Shown here: one piece after another, positions 2,463 through 10,657 of the stretch
Numbering within the stretch: position 1 is the first letter of the stretch
How the letters are laid out: the number at the start of each line of letters is the position of its first letter
Source of the DNA: Clostridiales bacterium
GTDB lineage: Bacteria > Bacillota_A > Clostridia > Oscillospirales > Oscillospiraceae
DNA: 10,657 nucleotides
Assembly: GCA_019417795.1 (NCBI GenBank)
Contig: DXUR01000067.1
Coordinates: forward strand, 1 to 10,657
Reading direction: 5' to 3'
Notes under the pieces: model-generated
Seen by the model: only the letters and a program-made list of their open reading frames with translations
Told to the model about the DNA's origin: nothing
The model's database searches: none
Program-made: the position numbers and the translations under genes

Positions 2463-2523
2463 GGGGGCGAGTGTTCGGAAACCTGCCGCAGTAATGCGGC
2501 AAGGCGCTGGGCACTTAGCCTAC
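2463..2523 (+). ncRNA. Group II intron domain VI with branch-point A
   Basis: The long hairpin is capped by TGCCGCA-GTAA-TGCGGCA, with a lower stem GAGTGTTCG/TGGGCACTT and a base GGC/GCC. A2517 is left unpaired between the lower stems and sits 7 bases from the 3' end, the usual place of the lariat branch point. The 3' splice site is after C2523. Confidence 0.8.
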
Positions 2524-2630
2524 ACAGAAAAAGCGGCCAGTTCGAGTGGACGGCGCCCGCCATCCTGTTCGCGTGCCTGGTGTTCACGCTGACGGCGCCG
2601 CTGTACATCTGGCAGATCATCGGAATTTGA
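2524..2630 (+). CDS. 3' exon of an intron-split small membrane protein (pilin-like, DUF3852-like)
   Basis: After splicing with bases 1-4 the frame reads D-Y-R-K-S-G-Q-F-E-W and ends at the TGA at 2628-2630. The visible part is 36 residues, mostly one membrane segment (about APAILFACLVFTLTAPLYI) with a charged stretch before it. From memory it resembles the C-terminus of the small, two-helix DUF3852 proteins found in Clostridia conjugative elements next to TrbL genes. These are plausible VirB2-like pilins, but that role is an inference and the family name is from recall. The next gene starts 10 bases downstream, so it probably heads the same operon. The protein can only be made from spliced RNA. 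The intron lies upstream of the TrbL and methyltransferase genes, and splicing may therefore also affect their expression. Confidence 0.65.
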
Positions 2631-2640
2631 GGTATAGGCA

Positions 2641-3066
2641 ATGACTTTTTACGAACAGGAGCTTCGGAAGATCGTCGGAGAACGGTACCCCGACGCCACC
2701 TATGTGGGCAGAGCCTGCTATGTGCGTCTGAGCGATATGAACCGGGCAAAGATCCAATTTGTCACTGGAATCGTTGCCAATCAGTACAACGCCTTGCAGT
2801 TGACGATCCTGAACCGCAGCGAAGGACAGGTGGATACCCTGCGCCTTCGCTTTTCGGATCTGCTGGGGACGAAGGCGACTTCCAACCCCAACTTCCGCAA
2901 TGGTGTTGACCCGCACATTTGGGATGACTATGGAAAAGTAGACTGGTATGTGTATCACCCCACCCGGCAGGACTATGAGAAGCTCTCCAACGCAGTATCG
3001 GACTATCTGGAGGTGTTCCAAGACATGAGCCAGTCCACCGACCAGCAATGGTCACAGACAATGTAA
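2641..3066 (+). CDS. Conserved-looking protein of unknown function in the transfer operon
   Basis: I do not recognise this 141-residue protein with confidence. It has no signal peptide and no membrane segment, so it is probably cytoplasmic. The N-terminal half mixes hydrophobic strands and charged residues (GIVANQYNALQLTILNR, VDTLRLRFSDLLG). The C-terminal half is acidic and aromatic (WDDYGKVDWYVYH), followed by a likely helix (about 110-130) and a polar Ser/Gln-rich tail. The ATG at 2641 has GAGG about 8 bases upstream, and it starts 10 bases after the pilin-like gene's stop, which suggests co-transcription. A hairpin at 3081-3107 follows its stop. Its place between a pilin-like protein and a TrbL-like channel suggests a transfer role, but nothing in the sequence shows which. 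Confidence 0.75.
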   Translation: MTFYEQELRKIVGERYPDATYVGRACYVRLSDMNRAKIQFVTGIVANQYNALQLTILNRSEGQVDTLRLRFSDLLGTKATSNPNFRNGVDPHIWDDYGKVDWYVYHPTRQDYEKLSNAVSDYLEVFQDMSQSTDQQWSQTM

Positions 3067-3080
3067 ACCGAGTATGATTT

Positions 3081-3107
3081 AAAGGCCGTACCAGCTGTAC
3101 GGCCTTT
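3081..3107 (+). terminator. Terminator-like hairpin between the unknown gene and the TrbL-like gene
   Basis: A perfect 11-bp stem AAAGGCCGTAC/GTACGGCCTTT encloses the loop CAGCT, 14 bases after the stop at 3066. The only T run is the TTT within the stem, so it may be a weak or bidirectional terminator, an RNA processing or stabilising hairpin, or part of an attenuator. Its left arm can also pair with 3126-3133. Confidence 0.45.
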
Positions 3108-3130
3108 GCCATATCCCAAGCAGTTGGTAC

Positions 3131-3155
3131 GGCTTCACCCGGAGGAGGTGAAACC
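3131..3155 (+). promoter_or_regulatory. Hairpin presenting the ribosome binding site of the TrbL-like gene
   Basis: GGCTTCACC (3131-3139) can pair with GGTGAAACC (3147-3155) with one mismatch. This puts GGAGGA (3141-3146) in the loop and part of the GGAGG core in the right arm, just before the ATG at 3161. It may tune translation of the channel gene. The fold was read by eye, without an energy calculation. Confidence 0.35.
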
Positions 3156-3160
3156 GAACA

Positions 3161-4060
3161 ATGTTTATTTGGGATTTTGTTGCCGATAAGGTTTTGGGCC
3201 AAATTGTGGACTGGTTCTACGGTCAGGTCGTAGGCTTTCTCGGCAACTTCTTCGCAGAGATGGGAAGCATGGGTGTCGAGCTCTTCGAGATGTCATGGGT
3301 GCAGAGCATCGTGCTGTTCTTCTCCTATTTGGCGTGGGCGTTGTACGGAACCGGGCTGGTCGTGGCCTGCTTTGAATGCGGTATCGAGTATTCCAGCGGG
3401 CGGGGCAACATCCGCGAAACCGCGCTCAATGCCATCAAGGGCTTTATGGCCGTGAGCCTGTTTACTGTCGTTCCGGTCCGGCTCTATGAGCTTTCGGTAA
3501 CGCTGCAGGGGCAACTCACCGCAGGGATCACCGGCTACGGTGCATCCATCGGAGATGTGGCAAGTGATATCATGCAGGAGTTCAGCGCCGTGGAATCGCT
3601 GACCGATTTGGCATCCGGCCCGTTCCTCGGCTTTGGCAGTATCACCAGCGGATTCATGATTCTGTTCTGCATCATCCTTATGGCGTATGCGATCATCAAG
3701 GTCTTCTTTGCCAATCTCAAGCGCGGCGGTATCCTGCTGATCCAGATTGCCGTGGGAAGTCTGTACATGTTTTCTGTGCCCCGTGGCTATACGGACGGCT
3801 TCATCCAGTGGTGCAAACAGATCATTGGATTGTGCCTGACCGCATTTTTGCAGGCGACTATCCTCATCGCTGGGCTCATGGTGTTTAAGGACCACGCACT
3901 GTTGGGTCTTGGTTTGATGCTTTCGGCTGGCGAGATTCCCCGCATTGCCGGAACGTTTGGCCTGGATACGACAACAAGAGCCAACATTATGAGCGCGGTA
4001 TATACGGCGCAGGCCGCTGTAAACACCACGCGCACGATCATGCAGGCGGTGTCAAAATGA
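3161..4060 (+). CDS. TrbL/VirB6-like conjugal transfer membrane protein
   Basis: This 299-residue polytopic inner-membrane protein likely forms part of the mating channel. About six hydrophobic segments are visible: 47-71, 90-109, 160-183, 189-206, 221-242 and 245-257. An amphipathic N-terminus (WDFVADKVLGQIVDWFYGQV) precedes them, and the extracellular or periplasm-facing linker at about 112-155 is rich in Gly and Ser. A basic turn NLKRGG (185-190) and a polar C-terminal tail with NTTRTIMQAV follow the usual shape of TrbL-like proteins of Clostridia elements (CD1112-like). The ATG at 3161 has GGAGG about 12 bases upstream, with the GGAGGTGA variant about 9 bases away. Its stop overlaps the methyltransferase start by 4 bases (ATGA), indicating translational coupling. 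The family assignment rests on topology, recalled sequence likeness and position. Confidence 0.85.
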   Translation: MFIWDFVADKVLGQIVDWFYGQVVGFLGNFFAEMGSMGVELFEMSWVQSIVLFFSYLAWALYGTGLVVACFECGIEYSSGRGNIRETALNAIKGFMAVSLFTVVPVRLYELSVTLQGQLTAGITGYGASIGDVASDIMQEFSAVESLTDLASGPFLGFGSITSGFMILFCIILMAYAIIKVFFANLKRGGILLIQIAVGSLYMFSVPRGYTDGFIQWCKQIIGLCLTAFLQATILIAGLMVFKDHALLGLGLMLSAGEIPRIAGTFGLDTTTRANIMSAVYTAQAAVNTTRTIMQAVSK

Positions 4061-4746
4061 GCGGGCTCACTATGGGAAGCCTGTTTGACGGCATCGGTGG
4101 TTTTCCTCTGGCTGCCATTCGCAGCGGCATTACGCCGGTGTGGGCTTCGGAGATTGAAGCCTTTCCCATTGAGGTCACGAAGCAGCGCTTCCCAAGCATG
4201 ATCCATGTGGGTGACATCACAAAGCTCAACGGCGCAGAACTGCCGCCCGTAGATATCATCTGCGGCGGCAGCCCGTGCCAGGATTTATCCGTGGCTGGAG
4301 CGAGAGCCGGATTATCCGGCGCCCGCTCCGGTTTATTTATGGAGCAGGTTCGACTGGTAAAGGAGATGAGAAATGCAGACGAACAAAGAGGCCGAGCAGG
4401 TCACGCTGTCCGACCTCGGTATATGCTGTGGGAAAATGTTCCAGGAGCCTTCTCCAGCGGAACTCCCAAAGGCGAGGACTTCCGTATCGTCCTCGAAGAG
4501 ATCGTCCGAGTTAAGTGCGGTTCCGTTTATGTCCCTGGACCTTACCCCTGGCCATGGCAATCTGCTGGGCGAATCCTACTGGGAACTGATTTCTCCCTGG
4601 CTTGGCGGTGCCTGGATGCTCAATACTGGGGTGTCGCCCAACGACGCAAGAGGATCTTCCTTGTCGCAGATTTTGCAGGACGCACCGCCGATAAAATATT
4701 ATTTATCCCCGAAGGCATGCTTGGGGATCCTGCGCCGAGCTTCTGA
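4057..4746 (+). CDS. C5-cytosine DNA methyltransferase, catalytic (alpha) part, motifs I-VIII
   Basis: This 229-residue protein carries the S-adenosylmethionine site and the catalytic centre of a DNA (cytosine-5) methyltransferase, which methylates C5 of a target cytosine in double-stranded DNA. Motif I is SLFDGIGGFPLAA (8-20). The acidic residue of motif II is in SEIEAFP (31-37), motif III is VGDI (51-54), and motif IV is GGSPCQDLS with catalytic Cys74. Motif VI is ENVPG (126-130), and motif VIII is QRRKRIFLVADF (195-206). It stops there: motifs IX and X and the target recognition domain are missing from this frame and occur in the next gene. Its start overlaps the TrbL-like stop (ATGA). The last 124 codons are also read in another frame by the next gene. 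No cognate restriction gene is visible, so a protective (anti-restriction) role during transfer is likely but inferred. Confidence 0.92.
   Translation: MSGLTMGSLFDGIGGFPLAAIRSGITPVWASEIEAFPIEVTKQRFPSMIHVGDITKLNGAELPPVDIICGGSPCQDLSVAGARAGLSGARSGLFMEQVRLVKEMRNADEQRGRAGHAVRPRYMLWENVPGAFSSGTPKGEDFRIVLEEIVRVKCGSVYVPGPYPWPWQSAGRILLGTDFSLAWRCLDAQYWGVAQRRKRIFLVADFAGRTADKILFIPEGMLGDPAPSF
4361..4375 (+). promoter_or_regulatory. Intragenic ribosome binding site for the second methyltransferase gene
   Basis: AGGAG (4361-4365, within AAAGGAG) sits 7 bases before the ATG at 4373, inside the coding sequence of the alpha gene. The match and spacing are ideal, which makes independent translation of the overlapping frame likely. 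Confidence 0.75.
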
Positions 4747-5875
4747 ACGCGGAAAAGCTCTGCCGCCGAAGCTGGAACGGGCGTTGAAGATCCAAGCCGG
4801 ATTGATGCGCCCGGACGGACAGCCTACGGATCTGAACGCATTCCATATCAACCAGCGGGATGAGGGCATTGACCTGCACGGCGTATCCGGTGCCTTGATG
4901 GCGACCACCAATATGCAGATGCAGACCTTCGTGACGCAGCCGGATGACACCGTCGAGGGATTTGACGGCTACAATGGTGACCTGACCGGCGATGTTGCGG
5001 CCACGCTCGGCGTGAACTGCGGGATGTCCACCGGCAGAAACGGTGTCATGGCCTTTGCTGCCAACCAAAGGGACGAGGTCCGTGACTTACATGATATTGC
5101 GGGCGCATTGAATGCTCAGCTGGGAATGAAACAGCAGACCTTCGTGGCGGCCGCATTCTCGGCAGGAGCCGGCGCCTCTGCTGGGAGCATTGGGTATGGC
5201 GAGGAACTGGCTCCTACGCTGAAAGGCTCTGCCAGCGGAAACTGTATGCCGTCCGTCCTGTGCCTGAATGACCAGGGCGGAAGCGTGATGGAGTGCTCTG
5301 AGAATGTGTCCGGTACTCTGCGGGCGCAGGAGCATGGACACCAGCCGCTGGTCTATGAAAATCACGGCATTGATGCCCGGTACACCGGTCCTCATCAGGT
5401 GGCGCCTACCATGTCCGCAAGATATGGAACCGGCGGAAACAACGTGCCGCTCGTAGAACAGAAAGAAACCTTCTGCATTACCGGAAATGCCATTGACCGG
5501 CAGCCGCAGAACGGCGGCAATGGGATCGGATATCAGCGGGACATCGCATATACGCTGACGGCCACTGATCATCATGCAGTCTACAGCCGCCAGCGTGTGG
5601 ATGATTTCCGTGAGAACGGCGTAGTCAGCACACAAAGCGCTCGCCAGCATAAGGACGCCACCGATCTCGTTTGCCAACAGGCGGAAGCCTATGCCTATCT
5701 CATCCGACGCCTGACACCGTTGGAGTGTGAGCGCCTGCAGGGCTTTCCGGATGGATGGACAGATATCCCCGGTGCTTCGGACAGCGCCCGTTATAAAGCG
5801 TTGGGCAACAGCGTAGCGATACCCTGCGTAGAGTTTATCATGGGTCGGATCACCGCAGCTCTTCGGGAGGTATAG
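4373..5875 (+). CDS. Overlapping second methyltransferase gene (beta): conserved N-part, repeat array, motifs IX and X
   Basis: This 500-residue protein starts within the alpha gene in the +1 frame and shares 374 bases with it. Residues 1-155 include LDLTPGHGNLLG (55-66), a WELISPW-type segment (70-76), LSPKACLGILRRASERGK (111-128) and a helical LPPKLERALKIQAGL. From memory, blocks like LSxKACxGILRRAxxRGK recur in phage and mobile-element proteins beside cytosine methyltransferases. Residues 156-433 are a diverged repeat array. The C-terminus has motif IX-like RRLTPLECERLQGFPDGW (445-462) and motif X ALGNSVAIPCVEFI (476-489), exactly the parts alpha lacks. Known two-polypeptide C5 methyltransferases (M.AquI, M.EcoHK31I) are divided in the same way, but their beta chains are under 200 residues. 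Beta probably supplies target recognition. A frameshift fusion of alpha and beta is an alternative. Confidence 0.85.
   Translation: MQTNKEAEQVTLSDLGICCGKMFQEPSPAELPKARTSVSSSKRSSELSAVPFMSLDLTPGHGNLLGESYWELISPWLGGAWMLNTGVSPNDARGSSLSQILQDAPPIKYYLSPKACLGILRRASERGKALPPKLERALKIQAGLMRPDGQPTDLNAFHINQRDEGIDLHGVSGALMATTNMQMQTFVTQPDDTVEGFDGYNGDLTGDVAATLGVNCGMSTGRNGVMAFAANQRDEVRDLHDIAGALNAQLGMKQQTFVAAAFSAGAGASAGSIGYGEELAPTLKGSASGNCMPSVLCLNDQGGSVMECSENVSGTLRAQEHGHQPLVYENHGIDARYTGPHQVAPTMSARYGTGGNNVPLVEQKETFCITGNAIDRQPQNGGNGIGYQRDIAYTLTATDHHAVYSRQRVDDFRENGVVSTQSARQHKDATDLVCQQAEAYAYLIRRLTPLECERLQGFPDGWTDIPGASDSARYKALGNSVAIPCVEFIMGRITAALREV
4838..5671 (+). repeat. Array of 7-8 diverged protein-level repeats in the methyltransferase beta gene
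   Basis: Units of about 32-39 residues share a pattern: an opening F or C with polar residues, then a [GA][AT]L.A or AxTL block, Gly/Asn-rich residues, and a closing V or VV. Units begin near residues 156, 196, 227, 261, 297, 329, 367 and possibly 411. The closest pair is 156-188 and 227-259, which share NQRDE, DLH, GAL and QTFV. Other blocks in the same place are AATLGV, APTLKG, SGTLRA, APTMSA and YTLTAT. The units are diverged at DNA level, so this is an old expansion. Confidence 0.6.
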
Positions 5876-5958
5876 CTGCCTTGGTGGTTTTGCTTCCGTT
5901 TCGCATAGCTTCTTCGTTGAGTTTGGTGAATAGCTTTCCATGACTTCTTCCGGTATGC

Positions 5959-5970
5959 TTTGCTTGCAAA
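5959..5970 (+). promoter_or_regulatory. Dyad TTTGC-TT-GCAAA, possible operator
   Basis: A perfect 5+2+5 inverted repeat lies 22 bases before the start of the ribbon-helix-helix gene, in the only sizeable gap (5876-5991) of this block. Proteins of that fold often repress their own promoter at short dyads. No clear -35/-10 pair is visible, and a dyad of this size can occur by chance. Confidence 0.2.
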
Positions 5971-5991
5971 ATCGAGGAAAGGAGCAGAACG

Positions 5992-6279
5992 ATGGAGGGC
6001 AAAAAGAACCTCTGTGCCATGATCCCGGCAGAGCTTCACACAAGGATCATGGCAGAGAAAGAAGAAATGAAGCTGGGTACACTGGCGGAATATGTGGAGC
6101 GCATCTTCGCAGAACACTTTGAAGGAGGAAACGATATGCAGACAGAACGGACCCTTGCGGTGAAAATCTCCGCGGAACTCTTCGACCGCCTGAAAGAGTA
6201 TCTGGAAAAGAATCACCTGAAGCAGAAGGACTTCATCACGCAACTGCTCCAGCAGGCGCTGGACAACGCAGAAGAATAA
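5992..6279 (+). CDS. Tandem ribbon-helix-helix (RHH) DNA-binding-like protein
   Basis: The 95 residues consist of two copies of the same fold. Residues 4-44 open with NLCAMIPAELHTRI and residues 52-95 with TLAVKISAELFDRL. Each copy has a short strand, then two helices (about EKEEMKL-GTLAEYVERIFAEHF and KNHLKQKDFITQLLQQAL). This is the layout of Arc/MetJ-type repressors, which act as dimers, so two copies in one chain could fold as a pseudo-dimer. AGGAAAGGAG lies just upstream of the ATG at 5992. A second strong ribosome binding site and ATG lie between the halves, so the second domain may also be made alone. It stands between the methyltransferase and the VirB-like genes, where a regulator or relaxosome accessory protein is expected. 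The exact target is unknown. Confidence 0.75.
   Translation: MEGKKNLCAMIPAELHTRIMAEKEEMKLGTLAEYVERIFAEHFEGGNDMQTERTLAVKISAELFDRLKEYLEKNHLKQKDFITQLLQQALDNAEE
6124..6138 (+). promoter_or_regulatory. Internal ribosome binding site and ATG between the two RHH halves
   Basis: GGAGG (6124-6128) is 7 bases before the in-frame ATG at 6136, at the junction of the two RHH copies. Translation from it would give a 47-residue protein, MQTERTLAVKIS onward, containing just the second domain. Confidence 0.5.
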
Positions 6280-6290
6280 TCAAATCACTG

Positions 6291-6326
6291 GATGGCCGCA
6301 GGGAAACCTGCGGCCATCTCTATTCT
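6291..6326 (+). terminator. Perfect GAAA-capped hairpin after the RHH gene
   Basis: GATGGCCGCAGG (6291-6302) and CCTGCGGCCATC (6307-6318) form an uninterrupted 12-bp stem with a GAAA tetraloop, 11 bases after the RHH stop. The following TCTATTCT is only moderately T-rich. It may be a partial terminator that lowers expression of the downstream VirB-like genes, or an RNA stabiliser. Confidence 0.5.
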
Positions 6327-6332
6327 CCGGAG

Positions 6333-6605
6333 GTGAGAACAATTTATATTTACCCTGATAATTTGACCGCAAAAGCCATGCTGTGGCTTTGGGAGCTGCG
6401 GGACATCGGCATCATCGGCGTGGGACTTCTTATCTCTGTTCTGGCGCTGACCCAGACCGGTATCGCCCTGCCGCTGGTGCTGACGGCTGTTTACGCTTTT
6501 CTCAGCATTCGCTTCGACGGCACCAGCATATTGGATTTTCTCAAATATGCCGCTGCGTTCCTGATCACAAAGCAGCAATTCTATGATTGGAGGTTGGAGT
6601 CGTGA
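6333..6605 (+). CDS. PrgI/VirB3-like small conjugation membrane protein
   Basis: This protein of up to 90 residues has a short YIYPDN-type N-terminus, two hydrophobic segments (about 24-40 and 43-60) joined by a tight turn, and a basic/aromatic C-terminal end (LITKQQFYDWRLES). Small two-helix proteins of this type (PrgI, VirB3) lie directly before VirB4 in Gram-positive transfer operons and are thought to anchor the ATPase to the membrane channel. The start is uncertain. The GTG at 6333 overlaps the Shine-Dalgarno sequence GGAGG (6329-6333), whereas an ATT at 6342 would have ideal spacing but be a rare start codon. The stop overlaps the next gene's GTG start (GTGA). The family call rests on size, topology and position. 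Confidence 0.75.
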   Translation: MRTIYIYPDNLTAKAMLWLWELRDIGIIGVGLLISVLALTQTGIALPLVLTAVYAFLSIRFDGTSILDFLKYAAAFLITKQQFYDWRLES

Positions 6606-7186
6606 GTAAAAAGCAGAAAAAGGACAAAGCCGCCCGCTCCACACGGCAGCTCATGGGCATTGAAGAGATCAAGGACTACTGCATTGCCACCCGCATGGGC
6701 AATCTCGTGTTTTTTATCATCAAGCCCACTAACATCTCCGTCCTGCCGGATTCCAGTATCAGCGCCCGCATCTATGCGCTGCTGAATGTCGTAAAGGGAC
6801 AGGCAGAGATCGAGATGCTGGCGCTCAATTCCAAGGAATCCTTCGAGCGCAATAAGGACTTCTACCGAGAGCGTCTGAGTCAGGAGGAACTGCCAGCGGT
6901 CCGCAGACTGCTGGAGCAGGACAGCAAGCACCTGGACCGTATTCAGGTGCTCATGGCGTCCAGCCGTGAGTTTTATATTATCATCCGGCTGCGTGGTGAA
7001 CAGGAGTCCGATGTGTTCTCCTACCTTTCCCGCATCGAGCAGAATATCAACGATAACGGCTTCACGACCCGCCGAGCCACCGAGCAGGATCTTAAAAAGA
7101 TGCTGGGTGTTTACTTTGAGCAGAACGTGACGACGGAAAAGTTTGAGGACTTCGACGGTGACCGCTGGGTCATTGTTGGCGAATGA
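6602..7186 (+). CDS. VirB4-associated conjugation protein resembling a stand-alone VirB4 N-terminal domain
   Basis: The protein has 194 residues from the GTG at 6602, which overlaps the previous stop and follows GGAGG (6589-6593). A TTG at 6589 would also be open, but it coincides with that Shine-Dalgarno sequence. The first 10 residues are very basic (SKKQKKDK). The rest is mixed alpha/beta with no membrane segment: strands LVFFIIKPTNISVL and EFYIIIRLRG, and a central charged helix region (FERNKDFYRERLSQEELPAVRRLLEQD). This strand-helix layout resembles the domain that precedes the ATPase in VirB4/TraC-type proteins, but no Walker motif is present. It lies immediately before the VirB4 gene, with only 13 bases between, so the two probably act together at the membrane base of the channel. 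Known relatives are annotated only as conjugal transfer proteins, so the domain relation is an inference. Confidence 0.75.
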   Translation: MSKKQKKDKAARSTRQLMGIEEIKDYCIATRMGNLVFFIIKPTNISVLPDSSISARIYALLNVVKGQAEIEMLALNSKESFERNKDFYRERLSQEELPAVRRLLEQDSKHLDRIQVLMASSREFYIIIRLRGEQESDVFSYLSRIEQNINDNGFTTRRATEQDLKKMLGVYFEQNVTTEKFEDFDGDRWVIVGE

Positions 7187-7199
7187 AGGAGGGATTCCT

Positions 7200-9032
7200 T
7201 TGGCAAAGAAAGTGAAGAAAGCAGCGCCGCAGAGCCGGGAGACTGCAAGAATCAAATCCTTCCTGGATATGATCGCACCTTCCGTGGTCAAGTTCGAACC
7301 CGATCACTTCATCTGCGGCAACACCTTCCGCTGCGTGTGGGCGCTGCGGGAATATCCCACGCAGACCGATGAGCAGGCTATTCTCCGACATCTGGGTGAA
7401 AAGGATGGGATCACGCTGCGCATCTACACCCGCCAGGTAACACCTGCCGAGGAAAAGCGCATCATCCAGAATGCTGCCAACAAAAACCGCATGGGCAGCT
7501 CCAACACCAACGACCTGCAGCAGACGATCACGGCGGAAAGCAATCTGCAGGATGTGGCATCGCTGGTGGCTTCCATGCACCGCAACCGAGAGCCGCTGCT
7601 CCACTGCGCCGTCTATATCGAGCTGACCGCTTCGGATTATAACACGCTCAAGCTGCTCCAGACCGATGTGCTGACAGAACTGGTACGGAGCAAGCTCAAT
7701 GTGGACAGGCTCCTGCTTCGTCAGCAGCAGGGATTCTGCTGTGCCAGTCCCGTGGGATACAACGCCTTCGGCCAGCAGTTCGAGCGTGTTCTCCCGGCAA
7801 GCTCTGTGGCGAATCTCTATCCCTTCAATTACAGCGGTAAAACAGATGCAAAGGGCTTCTATGTCGGGCGTGACAAGTACGGCAGCAACATCCTCGTGGA
7901 CTTCGATCAGCGCGACGAAGATAAGACCTCCGCCAACATCCTCATTCTCGGCAACTCCGGCCAGGGCAAGAGCTATCTTATGAAATTGCTCATCCTCAAT
8001 CTGCTGGAGTCCGGGAAATCGGTTATCACGCTGGATGCCGAGCATGAGCAGCAGGAAATGTGCGAGGCCGTGGGCGGCTGCTTTGCCGACCTCATGGCGG
8101 GAAAGTACATCATCAATGTGCTGGAGCCGAAATGCTGGGATGATGGCGGTGACCCGGACGATACGGCAGCACCGGAAGCCTTCCGCAAAAGCACTTTGCT
8201 GGCACAGCATGTTTCCTTCCTCAAGGACTTTTTCCGTGCCTACAAGGATTTCAGCGATGCGCACATTGACACCATCGAGATCATGGTGTCCAAGCTCTAC
8301 GCAAAATGGGGTATCACGGAGCGGAGCAACTTCCGCCGAATGCGACCGGAGGACTATCCGATCCTCTCTGACCTCTATAACCTGATCGAAGAAGAATTCA
8401 AAAGCTACGATCCCAACGCCCATCTGCTCTATACGGAAAAGCTCCTGCAGGAAGTGCTGTTGGGACTGCATTCCATGTGCAAGGGTGCGGACGCACAGTT
8501 CTTCAATGGACACACCAACATCACCTCCAGCCGCTTTCTTGTCTTTGGCGTCAAGGGAATGCTGAGTGCCGCTAAAAATGTCCGCAACGCCATGTTGTTC
8601 AATGTGCTGTCCTTCATGTCGGATAAACTTCTGACGGTCGGCAATACCGTGGCGGCACTGGACGAGCTGTATATCTGGCTGTCCAATCCCACGGCCATTG
8701 AGTACATCCGCAACTGCCTCAAGCGTGTGCGCAAAAAGGAATCCGCCATGCTGCTGGCTTCGCAGAATCTGGAGGACTTTGATCAGGAACATGTGCGCGA
8801 AATGACCAAGCCGCTGTTCAGCATCCCGCCCCACCAGTTCCTGTTCAACGCGGGATCCATTGACAAGCGCAGCTACATGGAGATGCTCCAGCTTGATGAG
8901 GCGGAGTATAACCTCATCAAGTTTCCGCAGCGCGGTGTCTGCCTGTACAAGTGCGGAAATGAGCGCTACCTGTTGGAGGTACATGCGCCAACCTATAAAG
9001 AAAAGCTGTTTGGCACGGCGGGTGGTCGCTGA
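7200..9032 (+). CDS. virB4: VirB4-type conjugation ATPase
   Basis: This 610-residue cytoplasmic ATPase powers assembly and substrate transfer of the type IV secretion channel. The chosen start is the TTG at 7200, with GGAGGG (7188-7193) 6 bases upstream. An upstream TTG at 7143 would add 19 residues but lies within the previous gene. The N-terminal domain (about 20-240) includes TFRCVWALREYP and the CCASPVGYNAFG-type block before the nucleotide-binding part. Walker A is GNSGQGKS (251-258). Walker B is AALDELYIW with D488/E489. The downstream LLASQNLEDF motif with Gln522 is typical of this RecA-like family, and SIDKRSYMEML follows. The size is normal for the Gram-positive VirB4 group. The stop overlaps the next gene's ATG by one base. 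Confidence 0.95.
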   Translation: MAKKVKKAAPQSRETARIKSFLDMIAPSVVKFEPDHFICGNTFRCVWALREYPTQTDEQAILRHLGEKDGITLRIYTRQVTPAEEKRIIQNAANKNRMGSSNTNDLQQTITAESNLQDVASLVASMHRNREPLLHCAVYIELTASDYNTLKLLQTDVLTELVRSKLNVDRLLLRQQQGFCCASPVGYNAFGQQFERVLPASSVANLYPFNYSGKTDAKGFYVGRDKYGSNILVDFDQRDEDKTSANILILGNSGQGKSYLMKLLILNLLESGKSVITLDAEHEQQEMCEAVGGCFADLMAGKYIINVLEPKCWDDGGDPDDTAAPEAFRKSTLLAQHVSFLKDFFRAYKDFSDAHIDTIEIMVSKLYAKWGITERSNFRRMRPEDYPILSDLYNLIEEEFKSYDPNAHLLYTEKLLQEVLLGLHSMCKGADAQFFNGHTNITSSRFLVFGVKGMLSAAKNVRNAMLFNVLSFMSDKLLTVGNTVAALDELYIWLSNPTAIEYIRNCLKRVRKKESAMLLASQNLEDFDQEHVREMTKPLFSIPPHQFLFNAGSIDKRSYMEMLQLDEAEYNLIKFPQRGVCLYKCGNERYLLEVHAPTYKEKLFGTAGGR

Positions 9033-10228
9033 TGGCAGTATCTGCAGGCATGATCGCAAAAGCCGCGGCGACGGTGCTCTCTAACGAAAAGCTGCGCAAA
9101 GGCGTGGGATGGACGCTGGTCGCAATTCTCTCGCCAGTCATTGTACTCATCGCACTTCTGTGTTCCATTGGCTCCGGAGGTGCGGATCACAACAACCAAG
9201 CGGTAGCTGCAGCCTTCTATGGCGTGAGTTACTCAACAGAAGTACCCGCAGAATTCCGGTATCATATCAAGGAGATGCGTACCGCTTTTTCTCTTCTGGA
9301 TTCGGCAGTGGCTTCCGTCAATGGGCAAACGGAAAGCGGAAATGGCCTTGACCCGATTCGGATCAAGGCCGTTTTTTATGCTCTCTGCTTTGGCGAGGAT
9401 GCGCCGTCCGCACGGGCGGCAAGCCGCTTCGTAGAATGCTTCTACACTTGGGAAACCCGTACCCGCACGGTAGATATTGAGAACGGCGATGGCACGGTTA
9501 CCAGCACGGTAGAAGAATACACCGTCGCTGTTCCGGTCTCACTGTATCAAGCGTATGCCAATCTGGAAGCAGAGCTTGGCAGGACGATCACAGAGGACGA
9601 CAAGAGCAATATCAACCACATCTATTCCATGATCGCCGGCGCTGCGGGCGGCGGAAATTACAGCGGTGAATTCCTTCGTGGAGATGGAAGCAGTATCGAC
9701 TTGGACATCTCAGCTTTCACCGATCCCTACAGCAAAAATGCTACTGACCTCGTGACCTACGCCAACCACGCATGGGAATCCGGCTGGGGCTATGTCTGGG
9801 GAACCTACGGCGATGTGCTGACCGAATCGCTCTTTGCCTACAAATTGGAACAGTACCCTGACGGTGTCGGCAGCTATGAAGATTTTATCCGTGCCAACTG
9901 GCTGGGCGGCAGGACCACCGACTGCGTGGGACTCATCAAGGGCTATGGCTGGTTGTCCCCGGAAACGATGACCATCGACTATGGGACTCACGGAATGCCG
10001 GATATCGGCGCCAACCAGATGTACTACAGCGCCACGGAATCTGGCACTATCGATACCATACCGGACATTCCCGGCCTTGCCGTTTGGCATGACGGACACA
10101 TCGGCGTTTACATTGGCGGCGGTCAGGTCGTTGAAGCTATGGGTACCAAGTACGGTGTCGTCAAAACAGAATTGGCTGGCCGAGGATGGACGCACTGGCT
10201 GAAGATTCCGTATATCAATTATGACTGA
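9032..10228 (+). CDS. Membrane-anchored NlpC/P60-like peptidoglycan hydrolase (VirB1-like)
   Basis: The protein has 398 residues with a short basic N-terminus, one membrane anchor at about 26-45 (WTLVAILSPVIVLIALL), and a large outside part. The C-terminal domain (about 235-395) looks like an NlpC/P60-type cysteine peptidase: Cys298 in TTDCVGLIKGYGW, His356 in WHDGHIGVYIGGG, and a following VVEAMG with Glu368 as a possible third residue. Such enzymes cut wall peptides to open a path for the mating channel. The middle region (about 55-210) is not a domain I can name; a classical lysozyme/SLT motif is not visible, unlike in many two-domain VirB1-like proteins. The ATG overlaps the VirB4 stop (TGATG), and its own ribosome binding site is weak, so it probably depends on translational coupling. 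A terminator-shaped sequence lies inside the gene at 9344-9377. Confidence 0.88.
   Translation: MAVSAGMIAKAAATVLSNEKLRKGVGWTLVAILSPVIVLIALLCSIGSGGADHNNQAVAAAFYGVSYSTEVPAEFRYHIKEMRTAFSLLDSAVASVNGQTESGNGLDPIRIKAVFYALCFGEDAPSARAASRFVECFYTWETRTRTVDIENGDGTVTSTVEEYTVAVPVSLYQAYANLEAELGRTITEDDKSNINHIYSMIAGAAGGGNYSGEFLRGDGSSIDLDISAFTDPYSKNATDLVTYANHAWESGWGYVWGTYGDVLTESLFAYKLEQYPDGVGSYEDFIRANWLGGRTTDCVGLIKGYGWLSPETMTIDYGTHGMPDIGANQMYYSATESGTIDTIPDIPGLAVWHDGHIGVYIGGGQVVEAMGTKYGVVKTELAGRGWTHWLKIPYINYD
9344..9377 (+). terminator. Intrinsic-terminator-like structure inside the hydrolase gene
   Basis: GGCCTTGA (9344-9351) pairs perfectly with TCAAGGCC (9363-9370). An inner CCG/CGG extends the stem across one C/A mismatch, leaving a 3-base loop ATT. 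A single G and six T (9372-9377) follow directly. The form is that of a strong Rho-independent terminator, yet it encodes GLDPIRIKAVF in the open frame. Translating ribosomes would mask it. Confidence 0.5.
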
Positions 10229-10239
10229 GGAGGTACGAC

Positions 10240-10512
10240 ATGAAAAAAGTAAATATCACTCTCACCTTTGACGATGACAAGCTGGATGCACTGGAGTTTT
10301 CTCTCCGCAAGGAACACTCCTCCGTGCAGGCCCGCATGGACGATGCGCTCAAGCAGCTCTATGAGCAGACGGTGCCGGAAGCTGTGCGGGAGTATCTGGA
10401 CAGCAAGGCTGTCCCTGCGTCCAAGCCCAAGCGCACTGCCAAATCCGCTGTCCCGAAAACGCCGAGTAGTGAGCCGAAGCCTGCGGCAGCCGTGGTAAAG
10501 GAGGGCAACTGA
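10240..10512 (+). CDS. DUF6103-like small protein with basic Ala/Pro/Lys tail
   Basis: This 90-residue protein begins with a strand KKVNITLTFDDDKLDALEF, then a helical region (KEHSSVQARMDDALKQLYEQTVPEAVREYLDSK). It ends in a disordered tail rich in Lys, Pro, Ala and Ser (about 57-90). The N-terminal strand followed by helices is compatible with an RHH-like or small dimeric fold, and the basic tail could contact nucleic acid. From memory it matches DUF6103 proteins found in the same position of Clostridia conjugative elements, whose function is not known. GGAGG lies 7 bases before the ATG at 10240, which is 11 bases after the hydrolase stop, so it is part of the same operon. Confidence 0.75.
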   Translation: MKKVNITLTFDDDKLDALEFSLRKEHSSVQARMDDALKQLYEQTVPEAVREYLDSKAVPASKPKRTAKSAVPKTPSSEPKPAAAVVKEGN

Positions 10513-10513
10513 T

Positions 10514-10657
10514 ATGGCACAGCAGGAAGAAATCGTCCTGTGGATCGACCAGCGATGGAAAAGAGCCATTGAGAAACATCTCAGGGATGAAACTTTACAG
10601 GAGCATCTGGAGAATGTGCTGGACGAGCTGTGCAATCAGCTTCCGGAGCGTGAGTAT
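10514..10657 (+). CDS. Unidentified protein, N-terminal 48 residues only (cut by the window end)
   Basis: The open frame starts MAQQEEIVLWIDQRWKRAIE and runs off the window end. GGAGGG lies about 9 bases before the ATG at 10514, and only one base separates it from the preceding stop, so it is surely co-translated with the DUF6103-like gene. The visible part is soluble, charged and probably helical (a coiled-coil-like run, LQEHLENVLDELCNQLPE). I cannot name the family. Position suggests a cytoplasmic accessory protein of the element. Confidence 0.7.
   Translation, partial: MAQQEEIVLWIDQRWKRAIEKHLRDETLQEHLENVLDELCNQLPEREY

Follow-up and report, generated by a model that had tools for sequence, protein, structure and literature searches.

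C5-cytosine methyltransferases built from two polypeptides are a known kind of enzyme, and PMC3404938 describes how the conserved motifs are shared out between the chains: In M.AquI, chain 1 carries motifs I-VIII and chain 2 the distal variable region together with motifs IX-X, and in M.EcoHK31I only motif IX lies on the small chain, the large one bearing the target domain and motif X. For M.SssI, the same source reports that complementation between fragments is most effective if the C-terminal one starts in the interval from motif VIII to the target domain. Here, we analyzed a 10,657-nucleotide (nt) stretch of DNA from a Clostridiales bacterium (contig DXUR01000067.1 of assembly GCA_019417795.1; hereafter "the window," meaning this whole stretch), in which two overlapping genes, alpha and beta, divide the motifs of one such enzyme in the same way as M.AquI, and in which the enzyme part of beta begins at the very point described for M.SssI. 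The locus differs from M.AquI in that beta opens with an apparently overprinted protein of ~145 amino acids (aa), and in that relatives of the window with an uninterrupted enzyme carry this protein as a separate nested gene. Such an overprinted protein is not mentioned for the two-chain enzymes in the accessible part of PMC3404938.

We propose, with a probability of roughly 70% for the explanation as a whole, that a second gene is overprinted, in the +1 frame, on the C5 methyltransferase genes of phages and mobile elements, a gene which the way the sequences have evolved reveals and whose protein product is predicted. Ordinarily, the enzyme is a single chain to which the nested protein is not joined. 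As comparison with homologs shows, a frame change just past the nested gene of the window truncated the enzyme after motif VIII, yielding alpha, and the same frame change joined the nested protein to motifs IX-X and the target-recognition region, yielding beta. Because M.SssI fragments complement best with a similar cut, we take alpha and beta as one two-chain enzyme: They most likely associate into one active C5 methyltransferase, where alpha would supply cofactor binding and catalysis, and beta target recognition and motifs IX-X. The overprinted domain would most likely be a partner of this enzyme, e.g., in docking, folding, or DNA positioning. The features at issue are as follows.

4057..4746, + strand: alpha, C5-cytosine methyltransferase motifs I-VIII, 229 aa
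4078..4104, + strand: SLFDGIGGF of alpha, which we take to be motif I (sequence)
4273..4281, + strand: alpha motif IV, catalytic PCQ (sequence, alignment)
4359..4365, + strand: ribosome binding site of beta, AAAGGAG, inside the alpha codons K-E-M
4373..5875, + strand: beta, 500 aa, putative overprinted N-terminal protein followed by the variable (presumed target-recognition) region and motifs IX-X
4373..4746, + strand: dual-coding stretch, alpha frame and beta (+1) frame
4432..4440, + strand: alpha motif VI, ENV (sequence, alignment)
4639..4659, + strand: alpha motif VIII, QRRKRIF (sequence, alignment)
4658..4801, + strand: best-conserved part of the overprinted protein (SLSQIL...KYYLSPKACLGILRRASERGKALPPKLERALKIQAG)
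4703..4738, + strand: signature motif LSPKACLGILRR
4820..5662, + strand: variable region of beta, presumed to act in target recognition, with repeated modules FHINQRDEGIDL.../FAANQRDEVRDL...; borders approximate (sequence, conservation)
5705..5758, + strand: beta motif IX, RRLTPLECERLQGFPDGW (sequence, Pfam profile)
5795..5824, + strand: beta motif X, KALGNSVAIP (sequence, Pfam profile)

Beta lies in the +1 frame relative to alpha, which it overlaps by 374 nt, and its ATG stands 7 nt behind AAAGGAG, a strong ribosome binding site. The Pfam profile PF00145 matches alpha over residues 5-147 (profile positions 2-128 of 324, E = 7.5e-33) and beta over residues 381-493 (positions 220-322, E = 3.9e-12), and the motifs I, IV (PCQ), VI (ENV), VIII, IX, and X of this family were all found, shared out between the two chains, with RRLTPLECERLQGFPDGW and KALGNSVAIP in the end region of beta. 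In an alignment of 13 sequences, the alpha residues P73, C74, Q75, E126, N127, V128, Q195, R196, R197, and R199 were invariant. These data bear out a first-pass annotation made from the letters alone, which had placed motifs I-VIII including PCQ in one frame and motifs IX-X in another, and had assigned beta a ribosome binding site of its own. Its analogy to M.EcoHK31I, whose genes according to the same annotation likewise overlap out of frame, held for the presence of two polypeptides and was weak for the composition of the chains as described in PMC3404938, since motifs IX and X and the variable region of the window all lie on beta. The annotation further supposed that beta would decide DNA specificity and that the element may thereby be protected from host restriction. 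The repeated modules of the variable region may mean that it holds several target-recognition units.

The same arrangement occurs in L001, a metagenome-assembled genome of an uncultured Lachnospiraceae whose beta is 98% identical. The closest two proteins, at 98 and 97% identity, represent clusters of 6205 and 609 sequences, respectively. For these reasons, the split is not a sequencing error, and decay of the window sequence was ruled out on the same grounds.

What the first-pass annotation had missed is that the N-terminal part of beta appears to be an overprinted protein that is far commoner than the split itself. The nested gene covers motifs VI-VIII and the following linker in the +1 frame and would encode a protein of ~135-165 aa, corresponding to the first ~145 residues of beta, where the C-terminal ~45 residues are best conserved and carry the signature LSxxACxGILRRAxxRGKxLPxxLxxAL. 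We sorted 96 sequences (the window plus 79 loci from genomes and 16 from viruses, retrieved with beta and with alpha, respectively) by the reading frames of motifs I-IV, motifs V-VIII, the N-terminal part of beta, and motifs IX-X; the first genome scan used beta patterns, and two of its six query peptides lay near or in the nested part or the adjoining modules. In class B (37 of the 96), motifs V-VIII and IX-X share one open reading frame (ORF), and the N-terminal part of beta has a nested ORF to itself, which spans 144-164 codons (only 74 in L065, which is truncated); motifs I-IV belong to the same enzyme ORF in 32 of these, and the other five (L044, L047, L054, L062, and L065) are on contigs that start after motif IV. 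Class A, the window-like form (20 of 96), has motifs IX-X in the beta ORF in 18 cases, with L021 (insert) and L086 (closed nested ORF) belonging to it by frame only and not as continuous beta chains. In class A′ (20 of 96), the N-terminal part of beta is encoded 3′ of alpha motif VIII, and every one of the 20 has motifs IX-X in the beta ORF. A further frame break straight after motif IV marks class C (9 of 96), six sequences had other motif spacing (insert, permutation, or alignment gap), and four could not be sorted. The first-pass annotation had counted homologs with one uninterrupted frame, and with the N-terminal 125 residues of beta absent or unconserved, against a two-chain enzyme. Uninterrupted homologs indeed exist (the 37 class B sequences by frame, 32 with motifs I-IV included), but these residues are kept in them, as the separate nested ORF.

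The frame switch can be seen directly upon comparing the window, L018, and L003 (class A) with L061, L048, and L022 (class B): In class B, the nested frame ends shortly after ...LILQAG/IQAG and the modules FHINQR.../FAANQR... are read in the enzyme frame, whereas in class A the enzyme frame stops and the nested frame continues into these modules. On a tree of 74 alpha rows (SH-aLRT support, quick search), A′ forms one side of a branch (support 96; 19 rows), and the state changes numbered eight for A (six forced by starred branches), five for B (three), and three for C (three). That the locus is a decayed or mis-assembled methyltransferase gene is hardly credible: Frame breaks do occur elsewhere in the family, as in class C, but both frames are conserved, and the same arrangement recurs in L001 and other independent assemblies, namely, the 18 class A sequences with motifs IX-X in the beta ORF.

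The three main forms allow the nested frame to be compared with and without the overlap. A nested-frame ATG occurred no more than 18 nt past the K-E-M codons in 43 of 45 class A and B sequences versus 0 of 15 A′ sequences (one further class B row without the K-E-M pattern stands outside the 45). Over alpha residues 108-213, the nested frame was free of stops in 45 of 46 overlapping sequences (17 of 18 in A and 28 of 28 in B) versus 3 of 15 in A′, where the mean null chance of finding no stop, estimated by synonymous codon resampling, was 0.11-0.15; this count covers 61 of the 77 A, B, and A′ sequences, the rest lacking motifs I-IV or a spacing of 0 or being identical, and it retains eight sequences with an alpha-frame stop in the stretch. 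The divergence at fourfold-degenerate sites in the overlap, relative to upstream alpha, was 0.67 in A (n = 16), 0.51 in B (n = 27), and 1.00 in A′ (n = 15), with L021, L088, L089, and L090 left out, and it was 0.68, 0.54, and 1.00, respectively, after reduction at 95% identity. The relocated A′ domain, which is free of overlap, had a median ratio of nonsynonymous to synonymous divergence (dN/dS) of 0.17 and a maximum of 0.32 (47 of 120 pairs among 16 sequences, the other 73 being dropped for a dS of 0.05 or less, saturated, or not computable). Its other frames carried stops, with 2-9 in the f+1 frame of all 16 sequences and 1-6 in the alpha-like frame of 15 (none in L027). The A′ clade is, as judged from these sequences, a natural control: The start, the open frame, and the constraint on alpha are gone after relocation, and the protein is kept.

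These data bear on the notion of an ordinary two-chain enzyme of the M.AquI kind, where the first ~125 residues of beta would be a chance product of the overlap. The division of the motifs, which is that given for M.AquI in PMC3404938, fits this notion, but the same residues form a separate ORF in single-chain enzymes, they are kept at a dN/dS of 0.17 when re-encoded without overlap, and the nested frame imposes synonymous constraint on alpha. We consider it most improbable, and an accidental N-terminal part of beta was ruled out by the open frame, the synonymous constraint, and the dN/dS of the relocated copies.

The same pattern was found in viruses. Four scans of viral contigs with methyltransferase-frame queries, some of whose patterns fall in motif VIII and within the dual-coding stretch, gave 320 loci (the best 80 each of 600 stretches), where motifs VI and VIII were located by pattern in 296 (24 lost), leaving 280 genes after de-duplication within groups and 267 after de-duplication across them. 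Between ENV and the tenth codon past motif VIII, the nested frame contained no stop in 266 of the 267 distinct genes, and 249 carried the signature L[ST]..A[CA].G[IL]..[RK]; at less than 80% nucleotide identity, 97 of 98 were open and 89 had the signature. Up to 60 codons past motif VIII, the nested frame was open in 277 of 280 genes versus 23.9 expected and the signature was present in 261 versus 0.16 expected, and the +2 frame, used as a control, was open in none versus 1.6 expected. Around the signature, conservation of the nested frame exceeded that of alpha in 8037 of 8489 pairs. That the +1 conservation merely follows from motif VIII was ruled out by synonymous resampling, the +2-frame control, and the relocated clade. 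Fourfold divergence was 0.09-0.28 from motif VIII to the nested stop and intermediate from ENV to motif VIII (0.27-0.54), compared to 0.50-0.68 upstream of ENV and 0.58-0.70 past the nested stop. In ten-codon bins, the four groups started from 0.45-0.72 ahead of the nested ORF, dropped to minima of 0.00-0.08 at the signature, 30-50 codons past motif VIII, and rose again to 0.39-0.77 beyond the nested stop, where group V4 was noisy.

A start with a ribosome binding site, by a loose pattern scored without a null, was present in 62 of 63 (V1), 63 of 71 (V4), 38 of 72 (V3), and 10 of 74 (V2) nested ORFs. The synonymous constraint could then reflect an RNA element or a programmed frameshift signal instead of a protein with its own start, in line with group V2 being mostly without a clear ribosome binding site and with a fusion that class B might make by frameshifting. 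We nevertheless regard this as very unlikely, given that relocated copies keep their amino-acid sequence while their other frames carry stops and that the start codon is gone in the relocated clade.

Named elements provided further examples. In 11 records picked from hits of the nested or the beta protein (L096-L106; L102 was placed by its tblastn position and not by motif pattern), the nested match lay in the +1 frame relative to motif VIII or the enzyme frame in all cases. They comprise phages of Vibrio, Streptococcus, Ruminococcus, Sinorhizobium, Faecalibacterium, and Providencia, the P1-like Escherichia phage JL22, mycobacteriophage Dove, a Corynebacterium plasmid, and an Enterobacter plasmid. 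Among the carriers are elements from Bacillota, Actinomycetota, and Pseudomonadota (P1-like dmt). None of the 12 annotated records of phages and plasmids that were read (L096-L106 and L476) lists the nested frame as a distinct gene. Nested protein matches were found in 112 of 50,697 INPHARED records and 524 of 72,556 PLSDB records, and, at the level of DNA with frames not checked one by one, the P1-like nested region occurred in 493 of 5,426 complete Escherichia coli genomes and the lambdoid-type nested region in 13. The class B nested protein matched 544 predicted proteins; among the 120 matches listed, five had a Pfam domain (four PF00145 and one PF19511) and one had a methyltransferase name, the rest being called "hypothetical protein" or bearing no functional name.

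The nested domain was tightly linked to the enzyme. A profile of it gave 19 matches in 16 genomes among 196 genomes of one class (up to 20 first-look candidates scored per genome), all of them in or beside a C5 methyltransferase; 18 were in +1 overlap with it, and the remaining one, L469, follows motif VI in the same frame. The domain is joined to the target region and motifs IX-X in classes A and A′, and in L104 and L469 it shares an open frame with motifs IV and VI. Because it is constantly linked to C5 methyltransferases and fused to different parts of them, the overprinted domain is likely a partner of the enzyme, a role to which linkage and sequence fusions point. The main rival, which we consider unlikely, is that the nested protein serves an independent function, e.g., as a regulator or as a factor against host restriction of methylated DNA, and shares only its expression with the enzyme, the fusion in the window being accidental. 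Such a separate function would suit class B, whose enzyme is uninterrupted and not fused to the nested protein, as well as the lack of a Pfam family for six nested proteins at E ≤ 1. It sits poorly with the moved domain of A′ having stayed fused to the C-terminal half of the enzyme, with the open frames of L104 and L469, and with none of the 19 genomic matches lying away from a C5 methyltransferase.

Searches with the nested proteins further gave no NCBIfam match (five tested, E ≤ 0.1) and no PADLOC match (three tested, E ≤ 0.1), and phrog_16143 matched four of six (L101, 1.6e-7; L097, 2.6e-5; L106, 0.0083; L048, 0.021). In a structure model of the L048 nested protein, two helices were predicted at residues 109-122 and 128-137, and the counterpart of 4658..4801 would be this two-helix unit.

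Several observations weigh against an overprinted gene that serves as enzyme partner. The constant linkage could reflect shared expression and not binding. Only residues ~100-140 of the nested protein are modeled with confidence, a fold search of this protein against the PDB gave five matches at E ≤ 10 and none at ≤ 0.001, and the beta model of the window is poor (mean pLDDT 37.8); with a poor beta model and a short nested model that lacks a significant structural relative, no mechanism follows from the fold. The first part of the nested ORF is much less constrained than the last part, and the ribosome binding sites are sparse, even loosely defined, in V2 and to a lesser degree V3. AAGGAG at the K-E-M codons, present in 14 of 18 class A and 17 of 28 class B sequences, persists in 9 of 15 A′ sequences that have no nested start and is hence not diagnostic. 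The A′ sequences are one clade and their de-overlap a single event, and the Fisher values of 3e-9 and 3e-12, which treat the sequences as independent, therefore overstate the significance. Lastly, we examined the +1 frame of 17 PF00145 loci from ten genomes, where five gave no canonical pattern (L430, L434, L435, L441, and L451), three were of the nested kind with signature (L439, L445, and L450), and nine had no signature (L427-L429, L431-L433, L437, L438, and L440). The +1 frame was open by chance in four of these nine (L431, L432, L433, and L440), such that an open frame alone is not diagnostic; the remaining five had 4-6 stops.

The surroundings of the pair resemble part of a conjugative-type element, with a group II intron, TrbL, the alpha/beta pair, and VirB4-like genes, in agreement with the first-pass annotation, which had placed the split enzyme on such an element. 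The neighboring features are as follows.

603-2420: group II intron reverse transcriptase/maturase with HNH domain (profile match)
2427-2523: group II intron RNA (Rfam RF00029 match)
3161-4060: TrbL-family protein, directly upstream of alpha, whose start overlaps the TrbL stop (4057 versus 4060)
3′ of the alpha/beta pair: small ORF
downstream of the pair: ORF whose similarity to TcpE is very weak (E = 0.13)
downstream of the pair: VirB4-like genes
end of the window: weak NlpC/P60 match (E = 0.012)

The VirB4-like ATPase is seemingly divided over the consecutive genes 6602-7186 and 7143-9032 (profile NF045975 positions 92-287 and 284-893). L001 appears to be without the group II intron (603-2523), its DNA alignment with the window spanning 2520-10657 only.

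Other rearrangements were seen among the relatives. The enzymes of L008, L009, L011, L035, L036, L041, L042, L063, L067, and L094 share a break immediately behind motif IV, with motifs VI and VIII intact in the other frame (except L094, where VIII was not seen) and beta sharing the frame of the first enzyme piece; nine placeable loci need three changes on the tree. Elements of ~3.5-3.9 kb with tyrosine recombinase ORFs sit in motif IV (L056, L064, and L072) or motif VIII (L021), with three Phage_integrase ORFs each in L064 and L021, two of two scanned in L056, and similar, unscanned ORFs in L072; presumably, they resemble recombinase-in-trio or Tn554-type elements. The C5 methyltransferases of L088, L089, L091, L093, L104, and L476 appear circularly permuted, their motif I stretch lying downstream of motif X. 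In the Faecalibacterium phages L104 and L476, motifs IV-VI, the nested domain, and motifs VIII-X are spread over two (L104) or three (L476) frames.

Neither overlapping genes nor C5 methyltransferases of two chains are new in kind, but the form described here is unusually widespread. Single-chain phage orphan C5 methyltransferases (PHROG 116; P1-like dmt, JL22) belong to the same catalytic family and have the same nested +1 ORF, differing from the window in that the enzyme is one chain and the nested protein unfused. PHROG 16143 ("DNA methyltransferase," 139 positions), whose entry states no nested or overlapping origin, matches nested proteins, and part of the nested protein may already be contained in this family, labeled as a methyltransferase. 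As in viral overprinted genes, the second frame is selected, the synonymous divergence of the first frame is lower, and most groups appear to have a start of their own; unlike these, the present gene occurs in elements of at least three phyla, is nested in the catalytic half of an enzyme, and was later fused, re-framed, and once de-overlapped. Searches of the open-licence literature, with subscription journals mostly outside their reach, turned up no description of a gene nested in C5 methyltransferases, which does not prove that it is unpublished.

More broadly, we lean slightly toward the view that most phage-type orphan C5 methyltransferase genes, including P1-like dmt, are two-gene loci where an ancient gene, absent from the annotations examined and overprinted on the catalytic half, would make a dedicated partner of the enzyme. 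With that partner always present, the enzyme could be cut or re-framed at several points and still be rebuilt, and two-chain forms would arise repeatedly. If true, a long conserved overlapping gene in a very well studied enzyme family, including relatives of a workhorse phage of E. coli genetics, would come as a surprise. The overlap, fusion, and relocation would provide a clean natural experiment on the persistence of overprinted genes, and the fusion of the nested gene would account for the origin of two-chain methyltransferases.

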